From the NCBI GenBank assembly GCA_005791535.1, contig SXWH01000071.1, positions 1-44,613 of the forward strand: a DNA stretch of 44,613 nucleotides, given 5' to 3'. The position numbers and the translations under genes are program-made. The DNA is from Verrucomicrobiaceae bacterium (GTDB taxonomy: Bacteria; Verrucomicrobiota; Verrucomicrobiia; Chthoniobacterales; Chthoniobacteraceae). Positions 6,928 through 10,362 of this stretch are shown piece after piece. Each line of letters begins with the position of its first letter. The stretch's first letter is position 1. The notes beneath the pieces are model-generated. The model ran no database searches and was not told where the DNA came from. It was given only the letters and a program-made list of their open reading frames with translations.

Positions 6928-7683
6928 CTACACGAAATCCAGCGCACCGGGCTCGGAAATCAGGCCGTGGCGGACGAGCAAATCAGCGTAGAGCCGAATC
7001 GCCTTCCGTCCGGCCTCGCCGACGTCGAAACGGATGTGTTCTGTGAGATAGCGATGCCGCACCTCGGGCGTGGAAAAATCATCCGCACCAACGATCTCCG
7101 GAATGCTACGGACGCCGCATTCTTTCAGCTCCCGCAACTCATCAACTGCCTCGCGTGGCACCTCGGGGCGCAGCGCCCACAATGCAAATACAAAAGGCAA
7201 GCCGGTGCAGCGCTTCCATTCCGCACCGAGATCGAGAATCCGCCAATCCGCGTTCTTCGGATCGAGCCGGAACTCGATCGCCTGATTGCCTATCAACAAC
7301 CGCGCGTCCCCTTCCCCGCCATATTCGGGATGCAAACCGTGGTGTTCCGCCAGCAACACGCGCAGCAAATGCGCTGAACTCAGCGAAGCAGGATCGAGCG
7401 AAACCGTCCGGACTTCGGAAAGCTCGCCACGATGTGCGAGAAAAACGCTGAACACCGCACCGTCTGATGCGATGGATGCTCCGTCCACCAAACGGTATCC
7501 CGGATGGCGCAATGCTTCAAAAACCGGCACCAGCGCTACATCGAGCGAGTTCTCATGCAGCATCCGCGCAAGCACCGAGGGATGTTCGAAAACTACCGGA
7601 CCATCGAAATCGTGGATCAACGGCACCGAGTTCAGATACTTCACGCAGCCGACCCGCAGCGTGCGAAGTCGCGGGTACTTCAT
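6928..7683 (-). CDS. mqnA: Chorismate dehydratase MqnA (futalosine pathway)
   Basis: MqnA removes water from chorismate to give 3-enolpyruvylbenzoate, the first step of the futalosine route to menaquinone. The 251-residue product begins, after a short basic stretch, with RVGCVKYLNSVPL, the hallmark of the family, followed by the periplasmic-binding-protein-like fold: LARMLHENSLDVALVPVFEA, SDGAVFSVFLAH, SLDPASLSSAHLLRVLL, LLIGNQAIEF and DLGAEWKRCTGLPFVFALWA. The ATG at 7683 overlaps the mqnE stop as ATGA, which supports it over a start ten codons upstream inside mqnE. The enzyme product is the substrate of MqnE, encoded directly upstream. mqnB, mqnC and mqnD are not in the window. Confidence 0.95.
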   Translation of the reverse strand: MKYPRLRTLRVGCVKYLNSVPLIHDFDGPVVFEHPSVLARMLHENSLDVALVPVFEALRHPGYRLVDGASIASDGAVFSVFLAHRGELSEVRTVSLDPASLSSAHLLRVLLAEHHGLHPEYGGEGDARLLIGNQAIEFRLDPKNADWRILDLGAEWKRCTGLPFVFALWALRPEVPREAVDELRELKECGVRSIPEIVGADDFSTPEVRHRYLTEHIRFDVGEAGRKAIRLYADLLVRHGLISEPGALDFV

Positions 7684-8792
7684 GCCGCGACGGGCTCCAG
7701 TTTTCGATACCACGTGTCGCGCTGAAACGGCTCGCGTCCAGCCTCGCGAATCGCCTTTCTCAGCGCAGCAACCGACTGCCCGACAGGCGTCGCGGCACCG
7801 GCCATGTGGAAGATTTTCTCCTCGAAAATCGTCCCGTGCAAATCGTCCACGCCATAATTCAGTGCGACCGACGCCATCTGCAAACCGAGACTAATCCAGT
7901 ACGCCGTGATGTGCTCGAAATTATCGAGATAGATGCGCGACACAGCGAGGTTCCGAAGCTCGTCAAATGCCGTCGCCCGCGGGATGTGGCGCAACTCCGG
8001 ACGCGCCGTTCCGCTTTCAAACGCAAACGGAATGAAACCCGTGAACCCGCCGGTCTCATCCTGCAATGCCCGCAACTGCCGCATATGATCCACACGCTGC
8101 TCGAGCGTTTCAACATGACCGAAGAGCATCGTCGCCGTGCTGCGCATCCCCATTTTGTGCCACGTGCGGTGCACATCCGCCCATTCCTCCGCCGTCTCCT
8201 TCCCGCGGCAGATTCGATCGCGCACACCGGCATCGAATATCTCCGCGCCGCCACCCGTGAGGGCCTGAAGACCCGCATCCTTGAGCTTCGCGAGCGTCTC
8301 ACCGATACTCATTTTAAACACCCGTTCGGCGAGATGGCGGATCTCAACCGCGGTGAATGCCTTGATGAAAAGCGCCGGACTCAGCGCCCGCATGCGCGTC
8401 AGCAATTCGAGATACCAGTCCGGCTTCAGCGTCGGATGAAGCCCGCCGACCATGTGAACCTCGGTGATGCCGCCATCGAGTCCGATTTGCACGCGACGCA
8501 GGATTTCATCAATCGTCAGTTCGAACGCGTGCTCCTCGTTCTTCCGCGCACCGAACGCGCAAAACTGGCAGCGCAGGATGCAATGGTTCGAGTAGTTGAT
8601 ATAAAGATTGTGGATGTAAGTTCCTGCGTTTCCGTTTTTTCGTTCCCGGACCAAGTTAGCGAGAAAACCGACCGCATTTAAATCCCGGCACCGGTAGAGC
8701 GCCATGCACTCGTCCTCGGAAATCCGGCGACCATCCATGACCGCTTGGTGGATGCTTTTAAGTTCAGCCGGAATGAGTTTTTCGACGCGCAT
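7680..8792 (-). CDS. mqnE: Aminodeoxyfutalosine synthase MqnE (radical SAM)
   Basis: MqnE is a radical S-adenosylmethionine enzyme that joins SAM and 3-enolpyruvylbenzoate to form aminodeoxyfutalosine in menaquinone synthesis. The 370-residue product shows the 4Fe-4S ligands C71, C75 and C78 in HCILRCQFCAF. It also shows HMVGGLHPTL (typical of the MqnC/MqnE/CofH group), GGGAEIF, FGHVET, and FIPFAFES near the C-terminal third. Length and motif order fit MqnE rather than MqnC. It heads the operon mqnE-mqnA-ydcF-like, with an ATGA overlap to mqnA. A perfect palindrome TTGTGAAATATTTCACAA lies 10-27 bp upstream of the start codon and suggests redox control by a Rex-type repressor. No Shine-Dalgarno is visible. 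Confidence 0.95.
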   Translation of the reverse strand: MRVEKLIPAELKSIHQAVMDGRRISEDECMALYRCRDLNAVGFLANLVRERKNGNAGTYIHNLYINYSNHCILRCQFCAFGARKNEEHAFELTIDEILRRVQIGLDGGITEVHMVGGLHPTLKPDWYLELLTRMRALSPALFIKAFTAVEIRHLAERVFKMSIGETLAKLKDAGLQALTGGGAEIFDAGVRDRICRGKETAEEWADVHRTWHKMGMRSTATMLFGHVETLEQRVDHMRQLRALQDETGGFTGFIPFAFESGTARPELRHIPRATAFDELRNLAVSRIYLDNFEHITAYWISLGLQMASVALNYGVDDLHGTIFEEKIFHMAGAATPVGQSVAALRKAIREAGREPFQRDTWYRKLEPVAA

Positions 8793-8801
8793 TTTTGTGG
8801 C

Positions 8802-8819
8802 TTGTGAAATATTTCACAA
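8802..8819. promoter_or_regulatory. Rex-type operator palindrome upstream of mqnE
   Basis: TTGTGAAAT/ATTTCACAA is an 18-bp perfect palindrome between the divergent mqnE and nucleoside-transporter genes, ending 10 bp from the mqnE start and 146 bp from the transporter start. It matches the Rex consensus (TTGTGAA-N4-TTCACAA) at every fixed position. Rex senses the NADH/NAD+ ratio and represses respiratory and fermentative genes when NAD+ is high. The core TGTGA-N6-TCACA also fits CRP/FNR-family sites, so the regulator is not certain. The position so close to the start fits repression of mqnE. Confidence 0.7.
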
Positions 8820-8964
8820 ACTTTACGTGCCGTCCACGGCATTCGGCTGCGGGCAAATTCCCGCGCAGATTTCTTCCATGATATTGGAACGCGCTCTTGC
8901 CACACAGCGGCGCAGTCGCCTACATCCCCGCGTCACTTCGACTCCGATCAACAACACCTGCCTT

Positions 8965-10362
8965 ATGAACTCTGGAATCCGCCGCAAACTTTTCATCATG
9001 ATGGTCCTTGAAATCGCCATTTGGGGTGCCTGGCTACCATTGATTTTCGGGTATCTGCCCAGTCTCGGGTTTTCGCCGAGCGCGCCGCCAGCGGCATTGA
9101 AAGGGATCGTCGAATCGCTGCCGAAATTCATGCATGTGCTCTTTTCGGAACAGGGATTGATTTTGAACGCGTTCCCCGTAGCGGCAATTGTCGGCATGTT
9201 CTTCAGCAACCAGTTTGCCGATCGGAACTTCGCAGCAGAGAAGTTTCTCGCATTCAGCCATCTCATCGGAGGCGCGGCGATTCTAGGTTGCGGCTTCACA
9301 AAGGATTTCTGGCCCTTCTTCCTGCTGATGCTCGTTCACTGCCTCCTTTACGTGCCTACGCTTTCCATCACGAACTCAATCGCCTTTGCGAATATGAAGG
9401 ACGCCCAAAAAGAGTTCGGCGTCATCCGCATGGGCGGCACGTTTGGGTGGATTCTTGTCGCGTGGCCGTTCACTTTCATCCTCGTCGATTGGGCCAAAGT
9501 GAGCGCGCTCAATCCGCAGGGAATCGTCAAGTGGTTCGACGCGGTATTCGCCTCGGGACTGACGGGCGACGCGCTTAAATCAGCGACGAAATGGACTTTC
9601 GTCGTATCTGGAATCATCTCACTCACACTTGCGGCGTTCAGCCTTACCCTGCCCCACACACCACCGAAGAAAAAAGAGGAAGGTGCCGCGGAGAAGCTTG
9701 CATGGCTGGAAGCGTTGAAGCTGCTGAAGCACCCGTTCGTCCTAGTTTTGTTTCTCGTCACGTTCGTGGATTCTTTCGTCCACAACTGCTACTTCAACTG
9801 GACGGGCGGCTTCCTCGGTGCCTCGCGCGAAGCAGGCGGAGTGGGCATCGCAGGCAACTGGATCATGCCCGTAATGACGATCGGCCAGGTCGCGGAACTC
9901 GGCACGATGCTGGTGCTCGGCGCGACCCTGAAGCGCTTCGGATGGAAAATGACGATGATCGTGGGCGTGCTCGGTCATGCAGTCCGATTCGCGGTTTACG
10001 CGTTCTTCCCGGAATCGCAGACCATCATCATTGTAGTGCAGATTCTCCACGGCATCTGCTATGCGTTCTTCTTCGCAACGGTGTATATTTTCGTCGATGA
10101 ATTCTTCCCGAAAGACGTGCGTGCCAGCGCACAGGGATTGTTTAACGTGATGATCCTCGGCGTCGGCGCGCTTGTGGCAAATTCGATTTGTCCGATGCTC
10201 ATGCAGGAGGTGTTCACAAAAGACGGCATCACGGATTTCAAGGGCCTTTTCCTCGTGCCGTGCTACGCCGCACTCGCAGGCGCTGCCGCACTCCTCCTAT
10301 TTTTCAACCCGCCAAAATCCGCAACCCCGTCCGGCGGCGGGACAGGCTCTGCGCCGCATTAG
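8965..10362 (+). CDS. NupG-like nucleoside:H+ symporter (MFS)
   Basis: A 465-residue membrane protein with about twelve hydrophobic helices. The first helix is preceded by MNSGIRRKLFIMMVLEIAIWGAW, and the loop GVIRMGGTFGWILVAW resembles the conserved R-x-x-G-T-x-G-W segment of the nucleoside:proton symporter family related to E. coli NupG. A soluble loop with PPKKKEEGAAEKLAWLEALK (about residues 230-250) separates the two six-helix halves. Import of nucleosides is the family role; specificity cannot be told. The start at 8965 places the first helix near the N-terminus; upstream in-frame codons would add an unrelated 87-residue extension that crosses the mqnE start region. The gene ends at a hairpin with a T run. 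Confidence 0.85.
   Translation: MNSGIRRKLFIMMVLEIAIWGAWLPLIFGYLPSLGFSPSAPPAALKGIVESLPKFMHVLFSEQGLILNAFPVAAIVGMFFSNQFADRNFAAEKFLAFSHLIGGAAILGCGFTKDFWPFFLLMLVHCLLYVPTLSITNSIAFANMKDAQKEFGVIRMGGTFGWILVAWPFTFILVDWAKVSALNPQGIVKWFDAVFASGLTGDALKSATKWTFVVSGIISLTLAAFSLTLPHTPPKKKEEGAAEKLAWLEALKLLKHPFVLVLFLVTFVDSFVHNCYFNWTGGFLGASREAGGVGIAGNWIMPVMTIGQVAELGTMLVLGATLKRFGWKMTMIVGVLGHAVRFAVYAFFPESQTIIIVVQILHGICYAFFFATVYIFVDEFFPKDVRASAQGLFNVMILGVGALVANSICPMLMQEVFTKDGITDFKGLFLVPCYAALAGAAALLLFFNPPKSATPSGGGTGSAPH

Follow-up and report, generated by a model that had tools for sequence, protein, structure and literature searches.

A probable Rex operator in front of the futalosine-pathway genes mqnE-mqnA in a Verrucomicrobiaceae bacterium

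In a Verrucomicrobiaceae bacterium, a perfect 18-bp inverted repeat, TTGTGAAATATTTCACAA, lies immediately upstream of mqnE and mqnA and is very probably an operator of the NADH-sensing repressor Rex. An earlier note on the same DNA had proposed this reading, which is now backed by the genome's own Rex protein, by the same palindrome standing before respiratory operons, and by the co-occurrence of motif and Rex across the taxonomic class. We regard it as highly likely that the palindrome is the operator of the genome's own Rex, which would repress mqnE-mqnA until NADH rises.

The palindrome, its neighbouring genes and the Rex protein

The stretch of DNA analysed (the window, 44,613 nucleotides) is contig C30 of a 294-contig, 5.16-Mb assembly that is 86.6% complete, labelled G000 below. 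The features that concern us are the following:

6928..7683, minus strand: mqnA, futalosine pathway, VitK2_biosynth family (Pfam VitK2_biosynth, 3.3e-39); its ATG overlaps the mqnE stop codon (ATGA)
7680..8792, minus strand: mqnE, aminofutalosine synthase (TIGR03700, 442.1 bits for a cut-off of 434.55; Radical_SAM and CofH_C domains); start codon 9 bp from the operator
8802..8819, no strand: Rex-type operator, perfect inverted repeat TTGTGAAATATTTCACAA (pattern match, PWM score 35.1)
8965..10362, plus strand: divergent transporter of the nucleoside H+ symporter type (Pfam Nuc_H_symport, 1.8e-118), 145 bp from the operator

The palindrome is exactly where the earlier note had placed it, and it agrees at every fixed position with TTGTGAAN4TTCACAA, including the forms TTGTGAAW4TTCACAA of Staphylococcus aureus Rex and TTGTGAANNNNTTCACAA of Streptomyces avermitilis Rex, as given in the available passages of the papers cited below. 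Its place upstream of the mqnE start is also right, the distance alone needing correction, from 10 bp to the nine bases (8793-8801) that separate site and start codon. In the window it is the sole match to the operator pattern at up to three mismatches, a tolerance at which dinucleotide shuffles of the window gave a mean of 0.02 matches (two of 100 shuffles had one), and its PWM score was reached by none of 20,000 background windows. Over the assembly as a whole, TTGTGAAANNTTTCACAA has seven exact copies, for an expectation from base composition of about 0.0002, and one copy with two mismatches; no copy with exactly one mismatch occurs anywhere in the 5.16 Mb, and the reversed control pattern has 0 copies in the same assembly. 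The looser pattern TTGTGN8CACAA shows no excess, with nine matches for the pattern and nine for its reversed control; seven of its nine matches have AAA..TTT as inner bases and are the exact form. The two others (on C157 and C260), both within long ORFs, were dropped from the operator count.

The operon structure described earlier holds: the first gene scores above the MqnE profile cut-off, and the overlap of the second with its stop codon makes it very likely that the two form one operon. The second gene belongs to the MqnA/MqnD-type family VitK2_biosynth and had no match at 0.001 among NCBIfam profiles; the name MqnA reflects this family and the position behind mqnE. Of the 48 mqnE loci searched, counting the window locus and duplicates, 45 contain an mqnA homologue. 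A scan of positions 8700-9050 for sigma-70-like promoters recognised nothing.

A search of the genome for rex found a single gene, on the minus strand of contig C183, encoding 206 amino acids. It is the one match to PF06971 (E-value 4.5e-17), passes several NCBIfam Rex cut-offs (245 bits for NF003993, where 217 are required), and combines the Rex winged-helix with the CoA/NAD-binding Rossmann domain. All eight PDB sequences that it matched are Rex or carry its earlier name, the best at 1.5e-40, with nearly full-length alignment. The part of PMC8836258 available to us lists 12 residues of Thermotoga maritima Rex as touching DNA and excepts one position from their high conservation; 11 of the 12 are identical in the C183 protein, and the twelfth, at the position that this source excepts, is changed from Ser to Thr. 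No operator lies within 300 bp upstream of rex in this genome (best score -0.1), giving no sign of autoregulation there.

The operator set in the genome, the family and the class

Besides the copy before mqnE-mqnA (C30, window 8802-8819), the genome has six exact copies, whose targets were assigned by position and profile searches. All six precede energy genes, of the act and atp groups, nuo in three places, and a polyprenyl synthase gene:

C15: operator before the genes presumed to encode alternative complex III (actA), namely a c7-type cytochrome, an ActA-like protein and a MoCo/Fe-S protein
C40: operator before atpB, ATP synthase a subunit
C99: operator before nuoB
C111: operator before a small ORF followed by nuoE-nuoF
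C145 (L017:5320-5337): operator before polyprenyl diphosphate synthase
C280: operator before nuoD

The assignment of the C15 genes to alternative complex III, like the names nuoC, atpE, atpF, atpH and atpA where we give them to genes of this genome, is a probable one made by reading the sequences. The expectation that the palindrome would recur before respiratory genes was thus borne out, before nuo and other respiratory operons in this genome and before NDH-2-like and cytochrome oxidase genes in relatives.

Across the family, the exact motif is present in each of 40 genomes, and the reversed control in none of them. Rex exceeds the cut-off in 37; the remaining three (73, 84 and 88% complete) contain the motif with no Rex over the cut-off. 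All 115 sites of the 39 other genomes were submitted to assignment by homology to proteins of G000, with the site allowed from -700 bp to +60 bp of the start. This placed 110 of them: 32 before atpB, 27 before actA, 19 before nuoD, 14 before nuoE-nuoF, 14 before polyprenyl synthase and four before nuoB. Among the five others, two precede atpB and one NDH-2, by Pfam, and two precede a conserved non-coding element, so that energy genes stand behind 113 of the 115. Before the polyprenyl synthase gene, at C145 of G000 and at 14 sites of 13 further family genomes, the operator runs into the predicted GTG start, the spacing being identical at those 14; this overlap may mean that the operator is partly translated, or that the true start is downstream.

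A draw of 335 genomes from the phylum comprised 119 of the same class, G000 included, and 216 others, with a Rex match defined at an E-value of 1e-30. In the class, motif and Rex occur together: 22 of 24 genomes with Rex have the motif, versus none of the 95 without Rex (Fisher's test, 5e-22, relatedness ignored). Genus g50 offers a close contrast, two of its genomes having both motif and Rex and the third neither. The two exceptions, G329 and G347, have a strong Rex and no exact motif, and may use a variant operator. The reversed control pattern occurred once in the 335 genomes, in G285. Outside the class, 166 of 216 genomes have a Rex match, and the motif occurs in a single genome, G201, upstream of that genome's rex (L189/L271); Rex in those genomes therefore probably reads another operator. 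Given the tie between motif and Rex, cultured members of the class are well suited to testing such control.

Sites outside the family were inspected in part, as 77 site rows in which some sites are counted twice and two rows come from G201. Homologues of reference genes follow in 44 rows: nuoD in 14, actA in 10, nuoB in eight, polyprenyl synthase in six, mqnE in two (one site), rex in two (one site), and nuoE-nuoF and atpB in one each. The other 33 rows have no homologue in the reference gene set; Pfam analysis of seven ORFs beside some of them returned NDH-2-like, NuoG, NnrS, cytochrome oxidase I, NuoF, NuoH and cytochrome c proteins, the remainder being inspected by eye. Two arrangements among these relatives deserve mention. 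G279 has two tandem operators 7 bp apart (L272:1723 and 1748) before actA. In G273 an NnrS-family gene is flanked by two operators (L205:1501 and 2902), the first separating it from nuoG and the second just after it, and a tie between Rex and the nitric oxide response is possible there.

The mqnE site in relatives and competing explanations

The mqnE promoters of 36 genomes were scanned: 35 from family genomes with an MqnE above 500 bits, and that of G296, a member of another family taken in because it has a site. The five of 40 family genomes without such an MqnE fall outside the count, and the background consisted of 20,000 windows with mqnE loci excluded. A full operator is present in three of the 36 promoters and a decayed one in two:

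G000: no mismatch, 9 bp from the start
G296 (another family): no mismatch, 21 bp from the start
G023 (another genus): two mismatches, 7 bp from the start
G025: three-mismatch remnant, 10 bp from the start
G029: left half-site, equalled by 64 of 20,000 background windows

The sites of G296, G023 and G025 each outscore all 20,000 background windows, and the distance to the start codon is 7-22 bp in all five cases. In the 31 other promoters, including that of G037, nothing stood out from background; G031 and G032, whose MqnE is most similar (82%), show no mqnE site at that strength. A set of 16 named mqnE loci gave one decayed site, on the same DNA as G029; as seven of the 16 duplicate the DNA of family loci, the two sets are not independent. 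With 31 of 36 promoters lacking a site, control of mqnE would be either lineage-specific or easily lost. We read the mqnE operator as an old site repeatedly lost, repeated gain being a possible alternative.

This patchiness, with no site at mqnE in most relatives, is also what favours a chance palindrome, an extremely improbable explanation given the seven exact copies in the genome and the near-identical position of the site before mqnE in two other genera. A different regulator would be a more serious competitor. The earlier note had named the CRP/FNR type as the main rival: a member of this family would bind the palindrome through a TGTGA-N6-TCACA core and control mqnE-mqnA. The letters of 8802-8819 do fit that core, and the genome encodes proteins with a cNMP-binding domain (10 matches to PF00027). 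However, PF13545, the profile used to search this 86.6% complete assembly for a CRP-type HTH, has its sole match below the cut-off, in a GntR-type protein, and the cNMP-domain ORFs, read by eye, look as if they have either one domain or additional kinase-like, ferredoxin-like or other parts, with no CRP-type HTH. Rex binding calls for AAA..TTT as inner bases, which the CRP core does not require, and seven of nine matches keep them even when these bases are left free. With no protein at the PF13545 cut-off and a motif that follows Rex over 119 class genomes, the rival proves weak, and we consider CRP/FNR control unlikely.

Similarly improbable is a genuine Rex operator that serves the divergent nucleoside transporter, or both genes; action on the transporter had also been envisaged in the earlier note. 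Site and transporter do share an intergenic region, the site being 145 bp from the transporter ATG, but among 48 mqnE loci (some of them duplicates, most reaching 1.5-3 kb from mqnE) the transporter is present at the window locus only, the sole other trace being in L024, where a weak and partial match (29%) lies some 2.7 kb from mqnE. Moreover, the site persists in G296, G023 and G025, 7-21 bp before mqnE, with the transporter absent, and the assignment of the 115 family sites placed none before this transporter. Action on this gene is therefore unsupported, since no other mqnE locus examined has the transporter next to mqnE, and it is probably no Rex target.

Proposed control by Rex and a candidate small RNA

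The palindrome, the genome's rex, the operators shared with energy genes and the co-occurrence of motif and Rex lead us to infer binding of Rex at mqnE, repression, a response to NADH and a change in mqnE-mqnA expression. At low NADH relative to NAD+, a Rex dimer would occupy the operator beside the mqnE start and block transcription of mqnE-mqnA, whose products would act early in the futalosine route to menaquinone. A repressor bound so close to the start codon, at a distance of 9 bp, would lie over the promoter or over the first bases to be transcribed. Upon accumulation of NADH, Rex would bind it and leave the DNA, and its release would raise the production of menaquinone along with that of complex I, alternative complex III, ATP synthase and polyprenyl tail synthase. 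Because one operator is common to the head-group genes, the tail synthase and the quinone-using enzymes, more quinone would be supplied as complex I, complex III and ATP synthase increase. If this is true, the futalosine pathway makes menaquinone in direct response to the NADH/NAD+ ratio, and the role of Rex in this verrucomicrobial class lies in aerobic respiration and the supply of quinone, not in fermentation.

Relief of repression by NADH is described for Rex proteins already studied, in the parts of PMC2883068 and PMC5355995 available to us. The closest likeness is to the S. avermitilis regulon, in which, according to the passages of PMC5355995 consulted, the operator is TTGTGAANNNNTTCACAA, nuo, atp and ndh are among the targets together with cydA1B1CD, rex-hem, hppA and wblE, and NADH relieves repression. 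Unlike in S. avermitilis, futalosine genes, polyprenyl synthase and alternative complex III bear the operator here, and rex does not; the words menaquinone, futalosine and polyprenyl are absent from the text of that paper (PMC5355995). The S. aureus operator, TTGTGAAW4TTCACAA, is likewise similar, and Rex there is also a repressor whose binding NADH lowers; the targets named in the accessible portions of the sources are mainly anaerobic and fermentation genes, in contrast to the respiratory and quinone genes found here (PMC2883068, PMC8593685). Rex operators as a kind are known, and this target and lineage were not met in the literature searched. In the same literature, which covers subscription journals thinly, no report of a link between Rex and menaquinone or the futalosine pathway was found, including the menaquinone passages seen of PMC8593685, PMC13367045 and PMC8376106.

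A broader view, for and against which we hold the balance to be about even, is that Rex in these Verrucomicrobiota coordinates the whole chain: the quinone pool, through the futalosine head-group genes and the polyprenyl tail synthase, along with complex I, alternative complex III and ATP synthase. As part of the same view, in one genus Rex would also drive a small RNA that is analogous to RoxS and of separate evolutionary origin. The element concerned lies 3' of the operator at three loci:

G025, L148:1459-1575: operator and element
G027, L153:1791-1906: operator and element
G000, contig C279, L019:5192-5084, minus strand: two-mismatch operator and element

This element may be a Rex-controlled small RNA. 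RoxS/RsaE of Bacillus subtilis is a small RNA repressed by Rex through a site at its promoter, as described in the part of PMC5419742 available, and the candidate resembles it in having a Rex site before it. Unlike RoxS/RsaE, it is without an Rfam match in the two of three copies searched: at the G025 and G027 loci, Rfam returned nothing at the element and one sub-threshold match elsewhere in L148. This difference suggests an origin separate from that of RoxS/RsaE. Against a small RNA, a hairpin followed by a T-run is also the look of a plain terminator, and in G000 the element is just upstream of an esterase-like ORF (read by eye), so that it could be a leader.

The element itself is 58-95 nt long and consists of a small hairpin, then a 15-pair hairpin, then the T-run. 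The G025 and G027 copies are 85% identical over 93 nt, and identity to the G000 copy is 74% over 58 nt (E-value 4e-4). All 15 hairpin pairs hold in the three copies, with four pairs changed on both sides, and the fold z-scores are -3.4, -3.4 and -2.9.
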